This document shows, one piece after another, positions 3,090 to 27,441 of a DNA stretch of 64,000 nucleotides; position 1 is the first letter of the stretch; the number at the start of each line of letters is the position of its first letter. The DNA comes from Thermoguttaceae bacterium. Lineage in GTDB: Bacteria > Planctomycetota > Planctomycetia > Pirellulales > Thermoguttaceae. The position numbers and the translations under genes were made by a program. Below the pieces are notes generated by a model that was not told the origin of the DNA, did no database searches, and was given only the letters and a program-made list of their open reading frames with translations. The DNA lies in contig JARKPK010000086.1 in the NCBI GenBank assembly GCA_029975295.1, forward strand, positions 1 to 64,000. Direction: 5' to 3'.

Positions 3090-5711
3090 TCAGGATTCGA
3101 GGCTTTTCCGAATGGCGCTGCGAGCAACGTCGAGGGCCTCGCCGAGTTTCTCCGGCGTCTTGCCGCCGGCCTGGGCCATGTCGGGCCGCCCACCGCCACT
3201 GCCGCCCACCACGGCTGCGGCCGACTTGACCCAATCCACCGCACTGAGTTTCATCGCGGTCAATTCGTCGCTCAGTCCGGCCAGCAGCGTCAGTTTTGTT
3301 CCCTCTTCGTCGCGGCAGGCGAGCATGGCTGCCAGCGGCGGCGATTTTCGCCGCAATTGGTCGATCAATTGCCGCAATTCAGCCGGGCCGGTTGGCGGAA
3401 GTTCGGCCACAACAACGTTTACGCCACCGATCTTTTCCGCGCCGGCCAGCAGCGACTCAACGCTCACCGACGATACCTTGCCGCCGGCAGCCGCCTGCTT
3501 TTTCAATAGGCGAAGCTCCTTCTGAAGCCCCTCGATTCGCGCGGCGGCTTCGTCAACGGGCGAACGGAGCAACGCGGCAATCTCGGACAAAACAGAATGC
3601 TCGCGGCGCGCCTGGCGGACGGCGGCCAAGCCGGTCAGGGCCGTGATCCGGCGGGTGCCGGCTGCAACGCTTTCCTCGGCGACGATCTTGAAGCAACCGA
3701 CCTCGGCCGTGTTGTTCAAGTGGGTGCCGCCGCACAGTTCTTTGCTGTATTCCCCCATCGTGACTAGGCGGACGGTGTCGGGGTACTTCTCTCCGAAGAG
3801 CATCATCGCGCCGCAGCGGCGGGCGTCGGCAAGCGGCATATTGGCCCAGGTGACCGCATCGCCCGAAAGGATCAACGCGTTGACCTCTTCTTCGATCCTC
3901 GCCAGTTGCTCGGGGGTGAGCGCCGCATTGTGCGCGAAATCGAAACGAAGCCAGTCGTCGTCCACCTTCGAACCTTGTTGGACGGCGTGTTCGCCCAGAT
4001 GCTTTCTCAGTGCGTAATGGAGCAAATGCGTGGCCGAATGCGCGCGGCGGATGCCCTGCCGCCGAGCGCGATTGACCTGGGCCGTGACCGTCTCTTCGAG
4101 CGTAATTTTGCCTGCGCGCAGATGGCCGCGATGCAAAACGAGGTCGCCGTCGATTTGCGTGTCGATCACTTCGAACCGCATGTCGCCATCGACCAGCGCG
4201 CCGGTGTCGCCGACTTGGCCGCCCTTTTCGCCATAGAACGGCGTTTTGTCGAGCACGACGACCACCGGCTGATCTTGGCCGATCTCTTCCAGTTGATCGC
4301 ACAGGCGGTTCTTGGCGACAATGCCGACCACGCGAGCGCCTTCGAGGTCCGTGGCGTCGTACCCGACGAATTGGGTGGCATGAACGACGCGCTTGAGCGA
4401 TTCGATCGGGCCGGTCTTGAAGACATCGACCACCTGGCCGGCGCCCGACTCTTTGGCATGCCGCGCCATCTCGTCGTGGAAGCCGGTCCAGTCGAACGTG
4501 AGGTTGTGTTCGGCGGCAATGCTTTCGAACAGTTCGGGCGGGAAACCGTAGGTCTGGTACATATCGGCGGCTTCCGCCCCGGAAATCACTCCGCGGTGCT
4601 GGCGCTTCATTTCGGCGAAAAGCGACTCGATTCGATTCAACCCCAAGTCGAGATTTCCGAGGAAGTGCTCTTCTTCCGATTTGACGACCTCTTGCACGCG
4701 CGCCACCGTTTCTTGCAGTTCCGGGTAGGGCGTTTTCATCAGGTCGGCAACGATCGGGACAAGCTGAAACAGCGCCGGACGGCGCACGCCCATTTGATGT
4801 CCATCAAGCACGGCGCGGCGCAATAAGCGGCGGATGACGTAGCCTTGTTTTTTCGGTCCGGGCCGAACGTCCTCGTGAATGGCCAGCGTGCAGGCGCGAA
4901 TGTGGTCGGCAATGCGGCGCATGCGGCGTCCGTTTTCATCGCCCGGGTTATAGCGAATGCCGCACGCTTCGCCGGCGGCCTCGACCAGCGGCCGGAGGAT
5001 ATCGATATGGAAGTTCGAATCGACGCCTTGCAACGCCGCCGCGGTGCGCTCTAAACCCATGCCCGTGTCGATATTCTTGCTGGGCAACGGCCGCAGATTG
5101 TTCGGCGGCGCGCCGACGCGATTGAACTGAGTGAAGACCAAGTTCCAAATTTCGACCGATCCGAAATCGGTGTGGTAGTAGATTTCGCTGCACGGGCCGC
5201 AAACGCCGTCGGGCCCTTGCGAGGGCGCGCTGGCCGGCCAGAAGTTTTCGTCTTCGCCGAGGCGCTGGATTTTTTCGGGCGGAAGCTTGATATCGCGTTG
5301 CCAGATGTCGGCCGCCTCGTCGTCGTCGAGGTAAACGGTAACGGAAAGCCGCTGGGGATCGAGCCCGAGCCATTTCTTGCTGGTAAGAAATTCCCAGGCC
5401 CAGTTGATCGCTTCGCGTTTGAAATAGTCGCCGAAACTGAAATTGCCGAGCATTTCGAAGAACGTATGATGATACGCGGTTCGGCCGACGTTCTCGATGT
5501 CGCCCGTGCGGAGGCATTTCTGGCAGGTGGTTGCCCGGGTGAACTCCAGCTTGCATCGACCGAGAAAATGGTCCTTAAACTGGTTCATGCCCGCTGGCGT
5601 GAAAAGAACCGAGGGATCCCAGCGGGGCACCAACACATCGCTGGGCCGGCGCACACACCCTTTTTGCTCGAAGAACGCCAGGTATTTTTCGCGCAGTTCA
5701 TCCGTTTTCAT
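3090..5711 (-). CDS. alaS: Alanyl-tRNA synthetase
   Basis: Charges tRNA-Ala with alanine in the cytoplasm. At 873 residues it has the normal bacterial length. The class II catalytic core opens with LREKYLAFFEQKGC and contains FTPAGMNQFKDHFLG (motif 1/2 region). The editing domain has the zinc/hydrolysis signature HSATHLLHYAL with the later CGGTHLNNTAEVG. A coiled region near residues 715-750 precedes the C-Ala domain, which carries the Gly-rich VVGGSGGGRPDMAQAGG near the C-terminus. The ATG at 5711 gives the usual family N-terminus. No T-box-like leader was recognised upstream. The KAS-like gene follows on the same strand. Confidence 0.98.
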   Translation of the reverse strand: MKTDELREKYLAFFEQKGCVRRPSDVLVPRWDPSVLFTPAGMNQFKDHFLGRCKLEFTRATTCQKCLRTGDIENVGRTAYHHTFFEMLGNFSFGDYFKREAINWAWEFLTSKKWLGLDPQRLSVTVYLDDDEAADIWQRDIKLPPEKIQRLGEDENFWPASAPSQGPDGVCGPCSEIYYHTDFGSVEIWNLVFTQFNRVGAPPNNLRPLPSKNIDTGMGLERTAAALQGVDSNFHIDILRPLVEAAGEACGIRYNPGDENGRRMRRIADHIRACTLAIHEDVRPGPKKQGYVIRRLLRRAVLDGHQMGVRRPALFQLVPIVADLMKTPYPELQETVARVQEVVKSEEEHFLGNLDLGLNRIESLFAEMKRQHRGVISGAEAADMYQTYGFPPELFESIAAEHNLTFDWTGFHDEMARHAKESGAGQVVDVFKTGPIESLKRVVHATQFVGYDATDLEGARVVGIVAKNRLCDQLEEIGQDQPVVVVLDKTPFYGEKGGQVGDTGALVDGDMRFEVIDTQIDGDLVLHRGHLRAGKITLEETVTAQVNRARRQGIRRAHSATHLLHYALRKHLGEHAVQQGSKVDDDWLRFDFAHNAALTPEQLARIEEEVNALILSGDAVTWANMPLADARRCGAMMLFGEKYPDTVRLVTMGEYSKELCGGTHLNNTAEVGCFKIVAEESVAAGTRRITALTGLAAVRQARREHSVLSEIAALLRSPVDEAAARIEGLQKELRLLKKQAAAGGKVSSVSVESLLAGAEKIGGVNVVVAELPPTGPAELRQLIDQLRRKSPPLAAMLACRDEEGTKLTLLAGLSDELTAMKLSAVDWVKSAAAVVGGSGGGRPDMAQAGGKTPEKLGEALDVARSAIRKSLES

Positions 5712-6393
5712 GGGGGAGCACGATCCGTTGCGTAAGTATTATTGGGCAAACATCTTAGCGGCATTCGCGGCAAGTCGCTGCCCGCCGGCTGCCGCAGTCC
5801 GCCGGGGCATAGCCGCCAGGGCATGGCCGGTTCGGTTCGCAGGGCCGATCCGCATCCGCACAGAAGCGGTAAGACCCTATAGGATAACGCCTTTCCCGAG
5901 TTGGGAAAAGGCGGGCGGCCGCGGCCGCGCGAGATCGCCAATTTGCCAAGCTTGACGATTCCCGCGGGTTCGTCCCAAGGGCTAGTTCGGCGTGGGGGCT
6001 GGCGCGTTGCCAAGCGAGATCACCAGTTCGCTCCGTTTTTTGCCGCGGCATCGCACCCGGGGCATGCTGCTTGCGGGGCAGGTCGGCAGGTGCCGTTTGG
6101 CGGTGGCTTGGCGCGGAATCAGGCAGCGCGCGGCCGCCGACCGGCGGGGTGGCTATCGGTGGAGCAATCGACAAGATCAAGCTGAGATGTCCGCGGCAAG
6201 TGCCGCTTGGAACCCGAGTGCGGGCAGACGCAGACTGCCGTGGGCCGACCGAATTCGCTCTTGTGTGTTGGGTTGCGTTGGCTCGCCTGCGCGGGGGCGC
6301 TCGGCCGTGAGCTGGCCAATTACGTGCCGGCCGAAGCCGTGCGATAATTCGGTTTGTCCCTCCGGCCTTTGAGACTTGGTTTGGGCTGCGTCA
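5712..6393. other. Divergent intergenic region alaS / radical SAM gene
   Basis: About 680 bases with no convincing gene. A bulged hairpin (CGCCTTTCCC ... GGGAAAAGGCG, about 5888-5912) is present without a T-run. I searched by eye for a short precursor peptide for the downstream maturase and found no frame with a recognisable leader. Confidence 0.4.
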
Positions 6394-8271
6394 ATGAGTC
6401 GCTCGGGCAAGACTTTGCTGGTTAACATGCCGTTCGGTCAGGTGCGCTGGCCGAATTTGGGCTTGAGCCTGCTGAAGGCCCAGTTGGTGCGGCGGTCGGT
6501 GTCGTGCGAGATTGCGTATCTGAACTTCGACTTCGCCGAGGCCGTTGGGCTGGATCTCTACACATGGGTGGCCGACCGTTTCGCCTTCGTGCTCGGCGGC
6601 GAACGCTTGTTCGCCCGGAGTCTGTTCGGGCAACAGTTGCCTTCGGACGACCGCTACTGGCACGACGTGCTGCTTCCGGGCGATCGGCAGCTCACCGAGG
6701 CGGATCGCCGCGATTTCGAGGGGATGGGCCAGTTCGTTGAGCCATTCTTGAACCGCTGCATGGCAGCCTACGACTGGGCACAGTATGCCGTTGTGGGATT
6801 CGCCACGAACTTTCAACAAACCCTGGCCTCGCTGTGCTTGGCTCGGTGGATCAAGATGGCCAGCCCGGGCACGACCATCGTCTTTGGCGGCGCGGCGTGC
6901 GAAGGGCCGATGGGCGTAGAACTCTTGCGCCGTTTTCCGTGGCTCGACTACGTCTTTCTCGGCGAGGCCGACGAGTCGTTTCCGCAGTTCGTCGATGACT
7001 TGCTTGCGGACCGCGTTCCGCAAGGCGGCGCCGGGCTGCTGGGCCGGGCCTCGTTGCCGCCCGAGGGGGCGCCGTGCGCGAACTCCACGGCGTTGTCTTG
7101 CGTCGCGGCCGGCCGCTTTGTGGATCTCAATGCGTTGCCCGATCCGGATTTCGACGACTATTTCGCCCGGTGGAGCCGCAGTCCCGCAAAAGCGGCCATT
7201 GAGCCGCTGCTCTATTTCGAGACCTCGCGGGGATGTTGGTGGGGCCAGAAACGGCATTGCGCGTTTTGCGGGCTCAACGGCAGCCGTTTAGCGTTCCGCA
7301 GCAAAGAGCCGCAACGGGCGTTCGACGAGCTCCGGCGGTTGGTGCAGCGCTACGGAGTCAGTCGCGCGTGTTCGGCCGACAACAACTTCGATCCGCGCTA
7401 CTACGACACCTTGCTGCCCTTGCTGGCCGAGGCCGACTTTCCCGTGGCCTTCGTGTACGAGATGAAAACCCATTTGCGACGGGAGCAGGCGGACGCTTTG
7501 CTTCGGGCGGGTTTAGGCGCGGCGCAACTGGGCATTGAAACCTTCAGCACCCCGATCCTCAAGCTGATCGGCAAAGGAGCGACGGCCGTTCACAATGTTC
7601 AGGCGCTGAAGTGGTTTACGGAGGCCGGGATCGAGGTGAAATGGAATCTCCTCTACGGCTTCCCGCTGGAGCCGCCCGAGGAGTACGCCGCCCTGGCGAG
7701 ATTGCTGCCGGCCCTGTTCCACTTGGCGCCGCCGCTGGCCGTGGGCCGGGTGCGGATGGACCGTTTCTCGCCTTATCATGAGCGCCCGGCCGATTTCGGC
7801 TTGGTGCGCCCGCGACCGCACCGAGCCTTCGGCTACGTGTACCCCTTCGATGCCCGATCGCTGGCTGAACTGGCTTACTATCACGAGTTTGATTTTGCCG
7901 ACGGGCGCGATCCGTGGCAGTATGCCGCGCCCGTCGTGAAGCTGGTTGAGCAATGGCAAGAGAATGCGGGGCAGACGACGTTGAACTACTTCGATCGGTC
8001 GGACGGCGTGTTGATTCTGACAGACACGCGGCCGGTTGCCCGCCAGTTCCAGTCGCGCATGACGGGCGCAGAACGCGACCTGTATCTTTTTGCAGACACG
8101 GGCCGAAGCTTCGAGGAATTGACGCATCGAGCTCGGCAATGTCCCGACGCCTCGTTGACCCAAGCCGATCGACTGGCCGCCGCGTTGGAGCGATGGACCG
8201 AGAACCAATGGGCGGTTCGCCTCGACGATCGTTGGCTCAGCTTGGCCACCCGCGCCGCGGCTAGCGAGTGA
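6394..8271 (+). CDS. B12-binding-like radical SAM protein, RiPP-maturation C-methyltransferase family
   Basis: A 625-residue protein. The N-terminal ~200 residues (LLVNMPFGQVRWPNLGLSLL, then a GGAACEGPMG and FLGEADESFP region) form a cobalamin-binding-like domain. The radical SAM core follows, with the cluster motif GCWWGQKRHCAFCGLNG: Cys at about 281, 289 and 292, spaced CX7CX2C. That spacing, the LDLY segment and the FARSLFG segment after it are typical of the family named for RiPP maturation (TIGR03975, known as rSAM_ocin_1). Start chosen at the ATG giving MSRSGKTLLV; a TTG 18 bases upstream is possible. The predicted reaction is cobalamin-dependent radical methylation of a peptide substrate. 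No precursor peptide, protease or exporter lies beside it. Family assignment is firm; substrate unknown. Confidence 0.85.
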   Translation: MSRSGKTLLVNMPFGQVRWPNLGLSLLKAQLVRRSVSCEIAYLNFDFAEAVGLDLYTWVADRFAFVLGGERLFARSLFGQQLPSDDRYWHDVLLPGDRQLTEADRRDFEGMGQFVEPFLNRCMAAYDWAQYAVVGFATNFQQTLASLCLARWIKMASPGTTIVFGGAACEGPMGVELLRRFPWLDYVFLGEADESFPQFVDDLLADRVPQGGAGLLGRASLPPEGAPCANSTALSCVAAGRFVDLNALPDPDFDDYFARWSRSPAKAAIEPLLYFETSRGCWWGQKRHCAFCGLNGSRLAFRSKEPQRAFDELRRLVQRYGVSRACSADNNFDPRYYDTLLPLLAEADFPVAFVYEMKTHLRREQADALLRAGLGAAQLGIETFSTPILKLIGKGATAVHNVQALKWFTEAGIEVKWNLLYGFPLEPPEEYAALARLLPALFHLAPPLAVGRVRMDRFSPYHERPADFGLVRPRPHRAFGYVYPFDARSLAELAYYHEFDFADGRDPWQYAAPVVKLVEQWQENAGQTTLNYFDRSDGVLILTDTRPVARQFQSRMTGAERDLYLFADTGRSFEELTHRARQCPDASLTQADRLAAALERWTENQWAVRLDDRWLSLATRAAASE

Positions 8272-8545
8272 TGGGCCGAAGCATAACGCACTGCGCGACA
8301 CGCCCGCCGACTTCAGGCCGGTCCATGCAATGCGAAGACGAGCGAGCGGTTGCCTCCGCTTGCCCGACGATCAAGTCTTGGCGGGCGATTCCCGACGAGC
8401 ACAGCCGGACGATCAATGCTTAGCGAAAAATGCTTGCGATTACGATTGCGCCTCGGAACGGCAATGTTGCACGGCCGACCCACGGGCGGCGGGGTCTTTT
8501 CGGCCCAGGGGAACCCTGCCGGCGTCGCCGGGCGCGCCAATGGCG

Positions 8546-9919
8546 TCAGAACAGCCAGAAGTGCGCGATCGAGAAGTAGATCACGATGCCGGTGACATCG
8601 ACGAATGTGGCCACAAATGGGCTCGAAGCGAAGCCCGGATCGAATCCCAAGCGGTGAAACACCAGCGGCAGCATCGAGCCGATCAACGTGCCCCATAGGC
8701 AGATCATGGCCACGGACTGCGAAATGGTGATGGCCAACAACCAACGGCTGGTGTCGTCGCCCAAGATGTGTTGCGGGGTGAGCGCGGCGCGAACGAATGC
8801 GATGGCGCCCAGCGTTGCTCCGAGGGCGAGCCCCATAAGGATTTCGTGTTTGAGAACTCTCCACCAGTCGTGGCGCGTAACTTGGCCCAGCGCAATAGCC
8901 CGAGTGATGAGGGTGGCCGCTTGCGAGCCTGAGTTTCCGCCGGTGGAGATGCACAGGGGGACGAAAAGAGCCAAGGCCACGATGGCGGCGATGGCGTGCT
9001 CGAATCGGGCCAAGGCAGTGAACGTGAATAGCTCGGCCAAGAACAGCAACGCCAGCCAGCCGGCCCGTTTTCGCCAAAGCGTGAGGAATGGGCTTTCCAA
9101 GTAGCTGTCGACCAGCGGCGCGACACCGCCCATGCGGTGGATGTCTTCGGTCGCTTCGTCAACGACCATGTCGATCACGTCGTCGTGCGTGATGATTCCG
9201 ACGAGCCGCTGTTGATCGTCCACCACGGGAATGGCCAGCAGGTTGTAACGCGCCACCTTTTGCGCCACGCTGGTGATCGGCTCGTTGACATGCACTGTGA
9301 CGAGGTCGCGTTCCATCAACTCGGCCACCGGCGTATCCGGCCGGCCAATCGACGAAACCAACTGCCGGGCCGAAACCAGCCCGCGCAGATGGTCCTCGTC
9401 ATCCACCACATACAAGTAATAGATCGTTTCCAGATTCTCTGCCTGCTTGGCGATTTCCGTCAGCGCCTGGCTCACAGTCAGGGTTTCGCCGAGTCGGGCG
9501 AATTCGGTGGTCATCTCTGCGCCGGCCGTTCCTTCGGCGTAGGCGCTGAGCCGCTGAATGTCGCGGCGTTCGGCCGTGGGCACCAAGGGCAGAATCTCAG
9601 CGACGATTCGATCGTCCACCTCGTTGAGGAAGTCCACGCGATCGTCCGAAGGCAGTGCACCAATCAGCTCGGCGATTTCGTTGCGCGGGGCCGTTTCGAT
9701 AATCTCGATTTGCTTCGAGGCATCGAAGTAGCGGAAGATCTCGGCTCGCACCGGCAATTCGGCGTGCCGGAGCACAGCCCAAGCCTCCGCCGGCGTCAGG
9801 CCCTCCATAAACTCCGCCGCGCGCGCCGGGTGGATGGCCGTGCAGAACTCTTGCAGCTCGGCCGAATTGTTTTCGGCCAGCATTTCGCGCAGTTCGGGCA
9901 GATAGAGCGTATTGGTCAT
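8546..9919 (-). CDS. mgtE: Magnesium transporter MgtE
   Basis: A 457-residue Mg2+ channel of the inner membrane. Domain order is that of the family: a cytoplasmic N domain of superhelical repeats (about 1-135: ELREMLAENNSAELQEF ... IIETAPRNEIAELIGALPSDD), two CBS domains (about 140-260: MERDLVTVHVNEPI, HDDVIDMVVDEATED) that gate the pore in response to Mg2+, then five membrane helices from about residue 285 (LTLWRKRAGWLALLFLAELF onward). The membrane part has the conserved GGNSGSQAATLITRAIALG that lines the pore. The ATG at 9919 fits the family start. No M-box-like riboswitch was recognised in the 400 bases upstream. The gene converges with the radical SAM gene. Confidence 0.96.
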   Translation of the reverse strand: MTNTLYLPELREMLAENNSAELQEFCTAIHPARAAEFMEGLTPAEAWAVLRHAELPVRAEIFRYFDASKQIEIIETAPRNEIAELIGALPSDDRVDFLNEVDDRIVAEILPLVPTAERRDIQRLSAYAEGTAGAEMTTEFARLGETLTVSQALTEIAKQAENLETIYYLYVVDDEDHLRGLVSARQLVSSIGRPDTPVAELMERDLVTVHVNEPITSVAQKVARYNLLAIPVVDDQQRLVGIITHDDVIDMVVDEATEDIHRMGGVAPLVDSYLESPFLTLWRKRAGWLALLFLAELFTFTALARFEHAIAAIVALALFVPLCISTGGNSGSQAATLITRAIALGQVTRHDWWRVLKHEILMGLALGATLGAIAFVRAALTPQHILGDDTSRWLLAITISQSVAMICLWGTLIGSMLPLVFHRLGFDPGFASSPFVATFVDVTGIVIYFSIAHFWLF

Positions 9920-10319
9920 TGTGGTCGCTCCGTATTTGCGACGAGTTGAGCGTTTTCCGACCAGAAGAGGGCGAAGCGCAACGCTTGCCCTTCGGTCCGA
10001 GTTGACCCGCGTAAGGCGGCTCGCCTCGCCGGCGGTTTTTGGATCGGACAGGCCATTTTAGCGTAACGGCCCGCCGCCGTGGCAGATGTCCCGAGCGACT
10101 TCGGGCTGTTGCTGCTGCGGCTGCCGCCGATTGCCGTCTGCCGCCGGCGGATGGGCGGCTGCTCTGTCGGCAAAACGTGCCGGCTGACGGGGGCCAAGTT
10201 CATCCTTGCCGAGTTGTTCCGTTCCACGGCGTGGTGCGTTGCCCTCCACTTCGTCGGCCAAGGGGCGGGCGGCGCGGCCACTTGTTCGTTGGCCGGGCTT
10301 GGGAGAGAATAGCGCGATC
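9920..10319. other. 400-bp divergent spacer mgtE / ABC permease
   Basis: No gene, RNA or clear promoter recognised. It must hold the promoters for mgtE (minus) and for the permease-ATPase pair (plus). Confidence 0.4.
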
Positions 10320-11444
10320 ATGCGATTGATTCATGTGGCATACAAGAACATGCAGCGGCGGCGCTTGCGATCGGCGCTGACGATTGCCGGCGTTTCTGTG
10401 GCGGTGGCCGCCGTGGTGGCGCTGGTCGGCGCGGTCGGGTCGTTCGAGCGGCAGTTGCTGGCGGTTTTCCAGAACCGGGGCATCGACTTGGTTGTGGCCG
10501 GCGCGACAACCGTGCAACGACTTCAAAGCAATCTCGAAGAAGATCTCGGACGCCGCATCGGCCGCTTGCCCGGCGTCAAACATGTGGCCTGCGCACTGAT
10601 CGAGAACTTCTCGTTTCCGGAACTCGATGTGTTGGGGGTCGTGGTTCGCGGACTGGAGCCGAACAGCTTCGTTCTCAACGAAGTCGCCCTGATCGAGGGA
10701 CGCAAACTCGAACCGGGCGACGGCGACGTGATGCTGATCGGCAAGGTTTTGGCCAACACGCTTTCGAAACGAGCCGGCGATCAATTCGAACTCGTCCCGG
10801 GCCGGAGCTTTCGGATTGTCGGCGTGTACGATTCGTACAATCTTCTCGAAAGCAACTCGCTCGTTGTGCCGTTGGATGCGTTGCAAGACCTGATGGACCG
10901 CCGCGGCAAGGCCACAGTGTTCATGGTCGTGGCCGCCGAGAGTTCGCAGGCCGCGGTCGAGTCGCTCGCGGCGCAGATCAAGCCGCTTGCGCCGAACATC
11001 GACGTTTTGCCGGCGCGACAGTACGTCGATTCGCTGATCGAAGTTCGCTTGGCGCGGGCGGTGGCTTGGTTCACGTCGACCTTGGCGCTGATCGTCGGCA
11101 CGATCGGCGTGGTGAACACGATGTTGACGGCCGTATTCGAGCGAACGCGGGAGTTGGCCGTGTTGCGGGCCGTGGGTTGGCGGCGGGCAACAATCGTGCG
11201 GATGATCCTCTTCGAGTCGGCGCTGCTGAGCATGTTGGGCGCCGTGGTCGGCTGTGCGATGGCGTGGTTTCTTACGCAAATGTTGCGACTGACTCCGACC
11301 GGCCGCTTGATCTCGGGCGAAATCGGCTGGTACGTCGTTGCGCAGGGTTGCGGCTTGGCTCTGCTCGTGGGGATTGCCGGAGGAGGCTACCCCGCTTGGC
11401 GCGCAGCGAAGCTGTTGCCCACGGAGGGGCTGCGCCATGAGTAA
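10320..11444 (+). CDS. FtsX/MacB-like ABC transporter permease
   Basis: A 374-residue membrane protein with the MacB/LolC layout: one N-terminal helix (LRSALTIAGVSVAVAAVVAL, about residues 16-37), a large extracytoplasmic domain (about 45-240), and three C-terminal helices forming the FtsX domain (from ARAVAWFTSTLALIVGTIGVV, with NTMLTAVFERTRELAVLRAVG at the coupling loop). The ATG at 10320 was chosen because it starts the amphipathic RLIHVAYKNMQRRRL segment typical of the family; longer in-frame starts lack this. Its stop overlaps the ATPase start by 8 bases (11437-11444), so the two are translationally coupled. Such pairs export lipoproteins, peptides or small molecules, or act mechanically; the cargo is unknown. 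Confidence 0.9.
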   Translation: MRLIHVAYKNMQRRRLRSALTIAGVSVAVAAVVALVGAVGSFERQLLAVFQNRGIDLVVAGATTVQRLQSNLEEDLGRRIGRLPGVKHVACALIENFSFPELDVLGVVVRGLEPNSFVLNEVALIEGRKLEPGDGDVMLIGKVLANTLSKRAGDQFELVPGRSFRIVGVYDSYNLLESNSLVVPLDALQDLMDRRGKATVFMVVAAESSQAAVESLAAQIKPLAPNIDVLPARQYVDSLIEVRLARAVAWFTSTLALIVGTIGVVNTMLTAVFERTRELAVLRAVGWRRATIVRMILFESALLSMLGAVVGCAMAWFLTQMLRLTPTGRLISGEIGWYVVAQGCGLALLVGIAGGGYPAWRAAKLLPTEGLRHE

Positions 11445-12180
11445 CGCCCGCACTGAAGCGACTCATCGAGGCGCAACAAGCGAATGCCTGCTTTGCGCGC
11501 AGGAACTGAGCAAGTTCTATCCGGACGGGCGCGTTCAGGCGCTCGACCGCGTTTCGTTTCACGTGAACCGCGGTGAGTACTTGGCGGTGATGGGCCCGAG
11601 CGGCAGCGGCAAATCGACGCTGTTGAACATGCTCGGCGCGTTGGACCGCCCGAGCAGCGGCGAGGTGTTCTTCGAAGGCAGGCCGCTGTCGGAGTTCTAC
11701 CCCTGGGACCGCTTCCGCTGCGAACAAGTGGGGTTCGTCTTCCAGTCGTTTCATCTGCTGCCCGCGCTAACCGCGCTGGAGAACGTGCAGATACCGATGC
11801 TCGAAACCCGCCGCAGCGCCGCGGAACGAGCGTCGGCGGCCGAGTCGCTGCTGGAACTGGTGGGCTTGGCATCGCGGCGGCATCATCTTCCGCAGACGCT
11901 TTCGGTGGGCGAGCGGCAGCGTGTGGCCGTCGCGCGGGCGCTGGCCAACAATCCGCCGCTTCTGCTGGCCGACGAGCCGACGGGCAATCTCGATTCGGCG
12001 GCAGCGGAGGCCGTTCTCGATCTCTTCGCGCGGTTGCACGGAGAACACCGGCTGACGCTGGTGGTGATCACGCACGATCCGGCGCTCAGCCGGCGAGCGC
12101 AACGCGTGCTGCGATTGAAAGACGGCCGATTGATCGCCGACGAGCCGGTTGAAGGCGCCGGCCCGGTTTCGGACCAATAG
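11437..12180 (+). CDS. ABC transporter ATP-binding protein (LolD/MacB type)
   Basis: A 247-residue ATPase partner of the preceding permease. Motifs in order: Walker A GPSGSGKST (about residue 55), Q-loop FVFQSFHLLPALTALENV, signature LSVGERQRVAVARAL, Walker B LLLADEPTGNLD and the switch His in VVITHD. The signature has Val for the usual Gly (LSVGE rather than LSGGE), which occurs in some members. ALTALENVQIP is typical of the LolD/MacB class. The start ATG lies inside the permease's last codons. It converges with the DUF155 gene downstream. Confidence 0.93.
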   Translation: MSNARTEATHRGATSECLLCAQELSKFYPDGRVQALDRVSFHVNRGEYLAVMGPSGSGKSTLLNMLGALDRPSSGEVFFEGRPLSEFYPWDRFRCEQVGFVFQSFHLLPALTALENVQIPMLETRRSAAERASAAESLLELVGLASRRHHLPQTLSVGERQRVAVARALANNPPLLLADEPTGNLDSAAAEAVLDLFARLHGEHRLTLVVITHDPALSRRAQRVLRLKDGRLIADEPVEGAGPVSDQ

Positions 12181-13267: not shown

Positions 13268-16009
13268 TCACTTCACCTTTAGCGACGCCTTGGCGGTTGT
13301 CGCCGAGGGCTTCACCGGCGCCGCGGCTTCGTCGGCCGGCGCGGAAGCCTGCGCGGCCACTTTGGCGGCGATCTGTTCCACCTCGGCCGCTTGCTGAGGC
13401 ACGGCCAAAGCGTCGAGATAGCGCCGCACGCAATCAACCGTTTCGTCGATGGCGTCGGCCTGGATGAGCATCAATTCGCCCGGCTGAGCCGTGTTCAGCG
13501 CGTGCTCGACCGACGCAACCGCGCCGCGAATCTCCTCGATCGACTGAACGCGCGTGGCGTTGGCGGCCAATCCCTGGCGAAAGAGTCCGATGATCTCGCC
13601 ATCGGCCCGACCGCGCGTGTAATGGTCTTCGTACAGAATCACGCGATCGAAGGCGCCGCCCAGCAGCTCGCCCATCCGCACGATGTCGCAGTCGCGGCGA
13701 TCGCCGGCGGTCGAGTAAACAGCGGTGCGGCGTTGATGCGGGAAGGTGTTCAGCGCGTCGATCATCGCCTGCAAAGCATGCGCGTTGTGTCCGTAATCGA
13801 TCACGCAGGTGGCCCCGTTGATTTCGAGGATGTTGAATCTTCCGGGCACCTTGCTCATGTCGGCGGCGAACGATTCCGCTCGGGCGGCGATAATCTCGGT
13901 GGGAACCTGCAAGGCCAACGCCGCGCCGACGGCAGCCAGCGTGTTTTCCACCTCGAAACGGATCGTTCCGCCGTGGGTCAAAGGAACGCGCTCGAGGGCC
14001 AGCACGGGCTCTTCTCGATCGCCCTGCGCGAAGACGACGATTCCATCGCGGACGAAGACGGCTCGCCCGCCATCGGCGCGGTGTTGCGCTAGAACCGGAT
14101 TCTGCCCGTCAACGGCGAAGAACACGACGCTGCCCGGGCAGTAGGGGGCCATAGCGGCCGTCAGCGGGTCTTCGGCGTTGAGCACGCCCGCGCCGGTCGG
14201 CGCGACGACGTCGATGATGCAGCGCTTCACTTTGGCCAAATCTTCGACGGTGTGGATTTCGCTCAGGCCGAGGTGGTCGCCGTCGCCGATGTTGGTCACC
14301 ACGGCCACGTCGCATTGGTCGAACGCCAAACCGGCCCGGAGAATGCCGCCGCGCGCTGTTTCGAACACGGCCGCATCAACGGTCGGATTCATGAGAATGT
14401 TGCGCGCGCTCTGCGGACCGCTGCAATCGCCGGTGTCGATGCGGCGGTCGTCCACGTAGATTCCGTCGGTGCAGGTCATTCCGACCCGCTTGCCCGTGCC
14501 CTTGAGGATGTGTGCGATGAAGCGGGTGACCGTCGTCTTGCCGTTCACTCCGGTCACAGCGGCAATGGGTATGCGGCCGTTGTCGCCGGGCTCGAACATC
14601 ATGTCGATGATCGCTTGCCCGACCGGCCGAGAGATTCCCACGGAAGGCTCCAAATGCATGCGCAACCCCGGCGCTGCGTTGACCTCGACAACGATGCCGC
14701 CCTGCTCCTCCAACGGGATGCTGATGTCTTGTGCGATGATGTCGATTCCGGCAATGTCGAGACCGATGGCGCGGGCGGCGTCGATCGCCCGAGCCGCCAC
14801 GGCCGGATGGACTCGCTCGGTCACGTCGATGGCCGTTCCGCCCGTGCTCAGGTTGGCGTTGCGGCGGATGAAGACGACTTTGCCTGCCGGTGGCACCGAT
14901 TCGGGCGAGAGGCCCTGTTCGGCCAACACGGCCAGCGCGATCACGTCGAGCTTGATTTTGCTAAGCACTGTGGCGTGATGCTCTCCGCGGCGCGGATCGG
15001 CATTGACGATTTCGACCAGTTCCGCCACGGTGCGAACGCCATCGCCGATGACCTGAGCCGGTTCGCGCCGCGCGGCGGCCACCACCTTGCCGCCCACCAC
15101 CAAAACCCGATAATCGTGTCCGGGAGCGTACTTCTCGACAAGCACGGAGTCGCTGATCTCGGACGCGGCTTGGTACGCTTGCAGAACCTGTTCGCGCGTG
15201 CTGATGTTGGCCGCTACGCCTCGCCCTTGGTTGCCGTCGCGCGGTTTGACGACGACCGCGCCGCCGATCTCCTGGGCGGCTTCCCAAGCGTCTTCGGCGC
15301 TGACGACCGGCCGTCCTTCGGCGCACGGCACACCGACCGAACGAAGGAACATCCGAGTCAATTCTTTGTCTTGAGCGATCGACTCGGCGATGGCCGAGGT
15401 GCGGTCGGTCTCGGCCGCCTGAATCCGACGTTGTTTCGAGCCATAGCCGAATTGCACCAAGCTGGCCGTATTCATCCGCATGTGCGGGATGTTCCGCGCA
15501 CGGGCCGCCTCGACAATCGCGTTGGTGCTCGGGCCGAGCAGAACGCGGGCGCCCAAGTCGCGCAGGCGATTGATCGTGGCCGCCACGTCGAAGGGGCGAT
15601 CGTAAATGGCCGCCAGCAACAGATCGCGCGCCGCCTCAAGGCACGCCCTGCCCAACGATTCTTCGCGATACCGGAAGATGACGCGGTAAACGCCCTCTTC
15701 CGAGGTTTCCCGGGCCTTGCCGAACCCCACGTCGGCGCCTGCCAACGATTGCAGCTCTAACGTAACATGCTCGAGAATGTGCGCCGGATAGGTGCCCCGA
15801 CGCAGTCGCTCGAAGAAACCGCCGCGTTCGCCGATCGAACAGCGGTGTTCGATCATCGAAGGCAGCCAAGCCATCAAACGCTCGTTGAACCCGGGGATGG
15901 CGTTCGACGCGGAGTCTTTCAACTCGCCCAGGTCCACCCAAGCCTCAATGACCGGAAAATTGGCCCAGATGTTGGGTCCTCGCAATGCCAGAACCTTGCG
16001 GAATTCCAT
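13268..16009 (-). CDS. cphA: Cyanophycin synthetase
   Basis: Polymerises Asp and Arg into cyanophycin (multi-L-arginyl-poly-L-aspartate), a cytoplasmic nitrogen and carbon reserve, using ATP. At 913 residues it is slightly longer than the usual 870-900. Order: N-terminal domain (about 1-160, VLALRGPNIWANFPVIEAWVD), an ATP-grasp domain (about 215-480, with VVVKPRDGNQGRGVAANIS and VEVNAAPGLRMHLEPS) that adds Asp, and a Mur-ligase-like domain (from about 485, P-loop AVTGVNGKTTVTRF; later FETARGGILRAGLAFDQCDVAVVTNIGDGDHLG) that adds Arg. The C-terminal ~25 residues are an Ala/Pro/Lys-rich tail. No cyanophycinase is in the window. The divergent ABC exporter and DUF1854 gene 1 kb away belong to the same functional locus. 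Confidence 0.97.
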   Translation of the reverse strand: MEFRKVLALRGPNIWANFPVIEAWVDLGELKDSASNAIPGFNERLMAWLPSMIEHRCSIGERGGFFERLRRGTYPAHILEHVTLELQSLAGADVGFGKARETSEEGVYRVIFRYREESLGRACLEAARDLLLAAIYDRPFDVAATINRLRDLGARVLLGPSTNAIVEAARARNIPHMRMNTASLVQFGYGSKQRRIQAAETDRTSAIAESIAQDKELTRMFLRSVGVPCAEGRPVVSAEDAWEAAQEIGGAVVVKPRDGNQGRGVAANISTREQVLQAYQAASEISDSVLVEKYAPGHDYRVLVVGGKVVAAARREPAQVIGDGVRTVAELVEIVNADPRRGEHHATVLSKIKLDVIALAVLAEQGLSPESVPPAGKVVFIRRNANLSTGGTAIDVTERVHPAVAARAIDAARAIGLDIAGIDIIAQDISIPLEEQGGIVVEVNAAPGLRMHLEPSVGISRPVGQAIIDMMFEPGDNGRIPIAAVTGVNGKTTVTRFIAHILKGTGKRVGMTCTDGIYVDDRRIDTGDCSGPQSARNILMNPTVDAAVFETARGGILRAGLAFDQCDVAVVTNIGDGDHLGLSEIHTVEDLAKVKRCIIDVVAPTGAGVLNAEDPLTAAMAPYCPGSVVFFAVDGQNPVLAQHRADGGRAVFVRDGIVVFAQGDREEPVLALERVPLTHGGTIRFEVENTLAAVGAALALQVPTEIIAARAESFAADMSKVPGRFNILEINGATCVIDYGHNAHALQAMIDALNTFPHQRRTAVYSTAGDRRDCDIVRMGELLGGAFDRVILYEDHYTRGRADGEIIGLFRQGLAANATRVQSIEEIRGAVASVEHALNTAQPGELMLIQADAIDETVDCVRRYLDALAVPQQAAEVEQIAAKVAAQASAPADEAAAPVKPSATTAKASLKVK

Positions 16010-26220: not shown

Positions 26221-26889
26221 TTACCGGTAGGTTGTCCGCGTGCCAGCGGCCCGCCAGCCATCGCGGTCGACACGCTGCGAGGCAGCGGTGGCTTCGGCCG
26301 GTGCGACGGGCATGGCCGGAGTCGATGCTTGGTCGATCCGCTTTGGGGCAACGACTTCGTCGGTTTCGTACAAGATTCTGGGTTTGCCCACGTACTGCGC
26401 GACCGGCGGCGACGGGGTGACGCTGACCTTCGGCGGCGGGGCGGGTTTCACCGGGGGCGACGGGCGTCGGCCTTCGTGAATTACTTCGCCTTCGACCACC
26501 GAAGGCGGCGATCCGATCGGGGCGGCCGACCCGCACCGACAACCCGAGCCGATGTAGTTGCCGTCGTGGTCGCAGCCTTCGCAGCCGATGCGGGCGCCTT
26601 GAATCCGCGGCCAGTAAGTCTCACCGCAGCCGTCACAGGGATAGCAGTTCCAGTTGAACAGCCCCAAGACGAAGTCGAGCGGGCCAAGCCGCCGTTCGCA
26701 GCAGCAATCGTTGCCGCAGCGCGGGCCGGCCGCGCTGCAATCCACTGCGTTGGCCACCGGATTGCATCCGATGCCGCAGTCGCCAACACCGCAACCGCGG
26801 GAACCGCAATGGCCGCCCAAAACACAGCAGCCGGCGTTGACGGCGGCCAACACGGCGGCCAAACCGATGACGACAAGATTTTTCGACAT
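26221..26889 (-). CDS. Very Cys-rich lipoprotein of planctomycete type, function unknown
   Basis: A 222-residue exported protein. The start ATG at 26889 has AGAGGTGG at good spacing, and a hydrophobic signal (NLVVIGLAAVLAAVNAGCC) ends at a lipobox Cys. The first half of the mature protein carries 18 Cys, many as CxxC, CC or CCC (HCGSRGCGVGDCGIGC, NDCCCERR, NCYPCDGCGETYW), suggesting dense disulfides or metal binding. LGPLDFVLGLFNWNCYPCDGCGETYW resembles a recurrent segment in planctomycete lipoproteins. The second half is Pro-rich and probably disordered. I do not recognise a characterised family. Confidence 0.75.
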   Translation of the reverse strand: MSKNLVVIGLAAVLAAVNAGCCVLGGHCGSRGCGVGDCGIGCNPVANAVDCSAAGPRCGNDCCCERRLGPLDFVLGLFNWNCYPCDGCGETYWPRIQGARIGCEGCDHDGNYIGSGCRCGSAAPIGSPPSVVEGEVIHEGRRPSPPVKPAPPPKVSVTPSPPVAQYVGKPRILYETDEVVAPKRIDQASTPAMPVAPAEATAASQRVDRDGWRAAGTRTTYR

Positions 26890-27441
26890 TTCATCCACCT
26901 CTGCGTTGGGCGGCCCAACGAGTTAGGGCGTCGGTTTCTCCTAGATGGAGATGCGCTTTGTTGAACTGCCCGCCCACCCTATCGAACGGCCGGATTCGTC
27001 GCGGGCGATCATGTTGGCAGACCGATCAGCGATTGCGATAGCGTCTGCCGAGGTCGATTCGTCCCGCATCGGCCAGATGGCAACCCAAAGACTGGGCTGC
27101 CCATCTGGCCGTCCATAGGGCTCTATCGGACAAAAAATCGCTACAATCGAGAAAATCGCTCGAATTGCGAAAGTTTGTCCAGTTGATCCAAGTTCACGAT
27201 TTTCGGCGGATCTGCTGTCGGCCGCAGTTGGAACCAAGCCGACAAGGCTTGGAAGCCAATGGAACTGAACGAACTAGTGAACAAATGGCAGGAGCGGGCG
27301 AGCGGGGGCCGGGCGAGCGGTCCGGGTGCGTGGCGGCGGCCCGGGCTTGTGCGGCGTCATGGGATTTCTGAGAATACTGTTCGTGGGAGAACCCAAAGCT
27401 GCTGTCACAACGCCGTCGACCTTGTTCTTAGGGAGTGGGCC
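26890..27441. other. 552-bp divergent spacer
   Basis: No credible gene. Around 27125-27170 the AT-richer sequence repeats AATCGCT-containing units (AAAAATCGCTACAATCGAG, then AAAATCGCTCGAATTGCG), which could be operator-like. The open minus-strand frame in 26941-27237 has no family-like sequence. Confidence 0.35.

Follow-up and report, generated by a model that had tools for sequence, protein, structure and literature searches.

What does a RiPP maturation enzyme act on when no precursor peptide is encoded beside it? The question is raised by an open reading frame at positions 6394-8271 (+) of a 64,000-nucleotide stretch of DNA from a Thermoguttaceae bacterium (contig JARKPK010000086.1), which we refer to in its entirety as the window. 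This ORF is a real gene. It begins with ATG and encodes a protein of 625 amino acids (an alternative TTG start 18 bases 5′ of the ATG adds six residues), and it lies between alaS, a divergent neighbor encoding alanine-tRNA ligase (3090-5711, -; TIGR00344, 824.8 bits), and mgtE, a convergent neighbor encoding a magnesium transporter (8546-9919, -; TIGR00400, 343.7 bits), the same flanks that were named in a preliminary description of this DNA. We propose, with a probability of roughly 60%, that its product is a functional, cobalamin-dependent (class B) radical SAM C-methyltransferase of the PoyB/PoyC-bottromycin kind, one that has no gene cluster and modifies in trans a peptide or protein whose gene lies elsewhere. 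The data described below directly support its family, its cluster motif, its predicted fold, its place in a single orphan clade, the absence of the linked hallmarks that were sought, and purifying selection.

The TIGR03975 model (rSAM_ocin_1, RiPP maturation radical SAM C-methyltransferase; cut-off 281.85) matches the protein with 590.2 bits in an alignment that spans positions 2-606 of the 606-position profile and residues 8-619 of the protein, and the second-best NCBIfam family reaches 37 bits. Six models describe cobalamin radical SAM families that have non-peptide substrates, and all score far under their cut-offs (BchE 33.7, HpnJ 15.7, HpnR 11.8, PhpK 29.2, KedN5 25.9 and BzaD 27 bits). 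Together with rSAM_ladder_B12, these models yield 12-37 bits versus 590 for TIGR03975. The model for MgmA, TIGR04014, gives 25.1 bits against a cut-off of 360, and so the protein is not a member of that family. Membership in the RiPP C-methyltransferase group, as the preliminary description had proposed, is supported by the HMM score, the CX7CX2C motif and the predicted fold, which all agree; by HMM score the protein does not fall among families with non-peptide substrates, a placement that the same description had held would speak against the proposal. A sequence search against solved structures returned just weak Elp3 matches (E 0.04-0.7). The genome itself, which is 99.99% complete, contains one match above the TIGR03975 cut-off and two weak radical SAM matches. 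This kind of enzyme is already known; it is the clade to which this protein belongs that is an unusual orphan.

The radical SAM core (residues 277-438; 7222-7707, +; PF04055, 54.6 bits) contains the sequence GCWWGQKRHCAFCG (7234-7269, +), in which Cys281, Cys289 and Cys292 have the C-x7-C-x2-C spacing first noted from the sequence. All three cysteines are invariant in 39 of 39 counted alignment rows (41 were aligned, and the partial rows L021 and L034 were omitted from all residue counts). The cobalamin-binding-like front that was also suggested earlier fares differently by sequence and by structure. Pfam B12-binding (PF02310) matches the N-terminus with an E value of 0.11, which is under the cut-off. 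An AlphaFold model (m114a847896dd; mean pLDDT 84, pTM 0.85, with poor confidence in the cluster loop at residues 281-299) nevertheless supports the prediction of an N-terminal Rossmann-type cobalamin-binding domain covering approximately residues 1-205 (6394-7008, +; boundary estimated). The best 15 chains found by Foldseek all belong to TokK, TsrM, OxsB, CysS or MgmA, and a second structure aligner gave Z scores of 21.9 for OxsB, 20.3 for AprD4, 20.2 for TokK, 20.1 each for TsrM and CysS, and 18.9 for MgmA. OxsB, TokK and TsrM align to the model from residues 1-4 onward, such that the suggested domain stands as a predicted fold, with Pfam remaining weak. The fold alone is no proof of methyl transfer, because OxsB, which is not known to be a methylase, and AprD4, a dehydratase according to its entry title, also rank high.

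One answer to our question would be a short precursor peptide that is encoded, but unannotated, in the gaps on either side of the gene (5712-6393 and 8272-8545), as had been suggested in the preliminary description. The upstream gap to alaS is indeed long (682 bp) and has several ORFs inside it. However, 18 ORFs of at least 25 codons in and around both gaps score from -0.28 to +0.15 log-odds per codon and lack the codon signal of the neighboring genes, relative to 0.27-0.34 for three real genes that also served as the training set. Moreover, small-ORF matches among clade loci, outside two syntenic pairs, are kinase genes and a few weak or short matches, and in one clade locus (L029) the methylase gene directly follows a gene for OMP decarboxylase. 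A precursor in these gaps is therefore disfavored, and we consider it very unlikely. The accompanying claim that the gene has neither a precursor nor a protease or dedicated exporter alongside it is borne out by the gap ORFs and by the clade loci described below, and our inspection of the surroundings of the gene found no precursor, protease or partner enzyme. An ABC permease and ATPase pair beyond mgtE (10206-12180, +) is LolC/MacB-like and LolD-like, with no shown match above cut-off; it is generic and is not counted as a dedicated exporter. Rfam searches at gathering level, covering the window and five loci, identified three tRNAs and one RNase P, with nothing beside the methylase gene or in its upstream gap. 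Further along, the window encodes a cyanophycin synthetase (13268-16009, -; TIGR02068, 1107 bits).

Is this lone setting peculiar to one genome? Among 60 genomes around the window, 13 (its own included) carry the gene at E 1e-20 or better, corresponding to 13 of 37 genomes of Thermoguttaceae versus none of the 23 genomes that represent the rest of the order. Phylum-wide, 16 of 392 genomes match at 1e-30. A tree of 41 sequences, built without the fragments L035 and L040 and without L019 (from the same contig as L038), unites 14 near homologues in a single clade with support of 100/100. Twelve of these come from the family of the window. The other two are from MAGs, namely a Thermogutta MAG and one that is labeled Blastopirellula marina (L018; Pirellulaceae in NCBI taxonomy), the sequence of which groups next to that from genome G018. 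The nearest group comprises three sequences from other Planctomycetota (L066, L067 and L068; joint group 98/94 with a midpoint root), the methylases of which are 35-41% identical. A search for further members of this sister group among 75 genomes of the class of G415 matched two genomes, both already in the set. A relative from Paracoccus, which is outside the tree, is 41% identical and thus approximately as close as the sister group.

We compared loci inside and outside the clade for five RiPP hallmarks: a SPASM or other radical SAM enzyme, a Cys-repeat precursor, an S8 protease, a CAAX protease, and a second copy of the methylase. With a list compiled after inspection of the outside loci, and with some clade loci short-flanked (in L032 and L034, one flank is nearly missing), none of 12 clade loci has a hallmark, whereas 11 of the 23 loci outside the clade have at least one (Fisher p 0.005, without correction for relatedness); the other 12 outside loci likewise have none. 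The clade set omits L003, L021, L035 and L040, the comparison treats L069 and L070 as one locus, and two sub-cut-off matches in outside loci (NHLP-clan, 22 bits, in L082; HExxH, 23.5 bits, in L074) do not contribute to the 11. The neighbors vary among the clade genomes, and in the ten loci that were scanned they include OMP decarboxylase, an oxidoreductase, a cation efflux protein, an AAA protein, leucine-rich and ankyrin repeat proteins and DUF362, along with three proteins without a match. Likewise, we compared small ORFs (stop-to-stop, at least 20 amino acids) lying no more than 2.5 kb from 16 clade loci, several of which have truncated flanks, and found no shared precursor; apart from the syntenic pairs L021/L037 and L018/L038, the matches correspond to the kinase genes that adjoin the methylase in L031, L039 and L040 and to a few weak or short cases. 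Kinases are common in this phylum, and thus the kinase type shared by L031 (8237-9547, +) and L039 (6031-7404, -), which is 55% identical over 453 amino acids and differently arranged beside the methylase, may be there by chance. Because the lone setting is common to the clade loci examined, it is no accident of this genome.

The sister group and more distant relatives present a different picture. In L066 (7898-9658, -) and L067 (8000-9844, -), a subtilase gene directly 5′ of the methylase gene encodes a C-terminal tail rich in Pro-Ile-Lys/Arg. These tails contain 12 and 5 copies, respectively, of a motif defined after viewing them, compared to shuffle means of 0.2 and 0.3, and the tail itself could be a candidate methylation target. 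L068 encodes a 318-amino-acid protein (3883-4839, +) in which five TPEEQAYYQGMADYEA repeats occur together with an extended array of VPPVRPP repeats. Nearby genes encode a subtilase, a TIGR03975 methylase and a SPASM radical SAM enzyme, making this locus a candidate RiPP-like system. We also retrieved four relatives that reside on plasmids. Rhizobium pRL10 carries an annotated Nif11-like precursor, an epimerase and the methylase consecutively, and in Ruegeria an annotated Os1348 NHLP-clan peptide directly precedes the methylase. The Paracoccus and Nonomuraea plasmids are unannotated, and ORFs were read in Paracoccus alone. There, in Paracoccus denitrificans, an unannotated 130-amino-acid ORF (L124:7574-7966, +) lies directly 5′ of the TIGR03975-like methylase gene; its product has a charged front and a C-terminal Cys-Val-Ile ladder, CVIQQCVRPCVISQC, and has no NCBIfam match. 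Two further planctomycete proteins have Cys-rich tails (L083:2654-4200, -). Their cyanobacterial relatives in L022 and L024 are of the Cys-every-fifth (CefA) type, and the CefA model matches the planctomycete pair under its cut-off.

Since the enzyme stands alone in its genome, its target is probably encoded elsewhere. Models for Nif11 (TIGR03798) and NHLP (TIGR03793) leaders, applied at E 0.001, had no match in any of the 37 family genomes. Divergent leaders would escape this search, given that the annotated precursor of pRL10 reaches just 16.5 bits (E 0.007) with the Nif11 model, although the NHLP model does detect the Ruegeria Os1348 peptide (26.5 bits). Nor does the absence of leaders in the family exclude a RiPP, because each of the two leaders is likewise missing from 13 of 14 carriers elsewhere in the phylum, several of which have clusters. 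Candidates modeled on the sister group were set aside. The L067 subtilase was unmatched at E 1e-15 in 60 relatives, a set without a known-positive genome, and a DNA pattern for Pro-Ile/Val-Lys/Arg repeats occurred in six of 60 genomes, none among the 13 carriers, relative to two of 60 (one a carrier) for the backward control. Regex scans of the clade loci found no Pro repeat. Similar scans of the window and clade loci gave six Cys-ladder ORFs. The one in the window, a Cys-rich ORF of 225 amino acids (26221-26898, -), was inspected more closely; it has a lipoprotein-like start and was set aside. The leader, repeat and subtilase searches thus yielded no substrate for the enzyme.

A gene with a patchy distribution and no cluster might be the degenerating remnant of a RiPP cluster that has been lost. 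The ORF is full-length, however, and the cluster cysteines are present in every counted clade row. Furthermore, three closer pairs, including a partial one, have dN/dS values of 0.17-0.21, and the value is 0.25 between the window and L038, a pair near saturation. Judged by these ratios, which are about 0.2, the closer pairs show purifying selection, and we regard a relic as the most improbable of the explanations considered.

A gene maintained by selection and found in a single copy could instead serve the cell in a general way. MgmA and Mmp10, for example, C-methylate methyl-coenzyme M reductase, and the enzyme described here might similarly modify a residue in a large, conserved protein of the cell. 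This would be a sub-case of an enzyme acting in trans and shares the probability that we assign to it. The single match above the TIGR03975 cut-off in the genome that carries it (apart from the two weak radical SAM matches), the purifying selection, the absence of hallmarks from 12 of 12 clade loci, the failure to detect Nif11 or NHLP leaders in 37 family genomes, and the presence of MgmA among the top fold matches are all consistent with such a role. In contrast, 24 of 37 family genomes, including some incomplete assemblies, have no match, and most housekeeping modifications would be more evenly distributed; the TIGR04014 score (25 bits against 360) also argues against it. On an alaS tree that covers 26 of these 37 genomes, the presence label changes eight times versus 9.1 in shuffles, and 154 of 500 shuffles are as low. 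Enzyme and alaS distances across 12 genomes exhibit no significant correlation (r 0.23, Mantel p 0.17), and therefore do not establish vertical descent or a uniform role in housekeeping. Together with the patchiness, this lack of correlation speaks against a uniform housekeeping role. A tblastn search with mgtE for evidence of insertion between alaS and mgtE had no match in 26 alaS loci, which says little because the flanks are at most 1.5 kb and the mgtE gene of the window lies farther away. Taken together, we entertain modification of a conserved cellular protein only tentatively, and slightly more tentatively still the idea that the clade represents a stand-alone bacterial protein C-methylase, a counterpart of the archaeal MCR methylases that derived from a natural-product enzyme after cluster loss.

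Another possibility is that a TIGR03975 enzyme has drifted in specificity and now methylates a small molecule or a carrier-bound intermediate. The clade carries a distinctive AAQLGIETF segment (residues 376-384; 7519-7545, +), where outside rows mostly read I/V-Q-P-G-I-E-S-L from residue 377. Leu379, beside the GIE motif, is shared by all 12 clade rows, as are Thr383 and Phe384. At these three positions, the rows outside the clade have Pro (26 of 27), Ser (23 of 27) and Leu (24 of 27), respectively. Ala377, Arg71 and Phe479 are also specific to the clade, such that the changes lie near the SAM site and elsewhere. These residues would allow a change of substrate, perhaps to a non-peptide, and some of the top fold matches, namely TokK, CysS and AprD4, have entries that mention small or carrier-bound substrates. 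But the fold is common to the entire superfamily, the HMM score places the protein well within the peptide-maturase family, and no neighbor recurs in the clade loci except for the kinases and the two syntenic pairs. A small-molecule substrate is thus possible, although less likely than a peptide or protein, and we judge drifted specificity to be unlikely.

If the enzyme does act in trans on a peptide or protein, its cofactors, its chemistry and the peptidic nature of its substrate would presumably resemble those of characterized relatives in the literature. The N-terminal Rossmann domain would hold methylcobalamin as the methyl donor, and a [4Fe-4S] cluster on Cys281, Cys289 and Cys292 would cleave SAM. 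The resulting 5′-deoxyadenosyl radical may then abstract a hydrogen from an unactivated carbon, most likely the C-beta of Val, Ile, Pro or a similar residue, and the radical-bearing carbon would accept the methyl group. In this clade, the gene cluster would have been lost or never present.

C-methylation of unactivated carbons in proteins is rare, and a lineage that has retained the enzyme without a cluster is a place to seek it outside of natural products, or to seek a RiPP with an unlinked precursor. Membership in TIGR03975 by itself does not mark a gene cluster. Matches without a true cluster have already been noted in passing, in that a sponge-microbiome survey discarded antiSMASH calls for TIGR03975 as likely false positives (PMC9426513). 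In the literature collection searched, no title or abstract shown dealt with this clade, no paper combined Thermogutta and radical SAM, TIGR03975 occurred in two papers, and the string rSAM_ocin_1 occurred in none.

How, then, does this enzyme compare with known systems? It resembles the TIGR03975 family in its score of 590 bits over residues 8-619, its CX7CX2C motif and its cobalamin-radical-SAM fold, and differs in setting, since 11 of 23 loci of relatives outside the clade include a RiPP hallmark, in contrast to 0 of 12 within it. The sister group is nearest in the tree, with 35-41% identity, yet its methylases adjoin S8 subtilases, two of which have Pro-Ile-Lys/Arg-rich tails, and one locus adds the VPPVRPP repeat protein and the SPASM enzyme. 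MgmA, the methyl-coenzyme M reductase glutamine C-methyltransferase (PDB title), shares the cobalamin radical SAM fold (Z 18.9) and modifies a large protein, but the 625-amino-acid enzyme barely registers with its model. A further parallel is provided by the C-methylases of polytheonamide (PoyB/PoyC) and bottromycin clusters. As these are described in reviews, they share the CX7CX2C motif and class B architecture, they are proposed to act on C-beta atoms, and PoyC methylates C-beta on Val and Ile (PMC5682303, PMC11285071). PoyB, PoyC and the bottromycin enzymes reside in biosynthetic clusters together with their precursors, whereas the enzyme at 6394-8271 has no precursor found beside it and probably reaches its target in trans.
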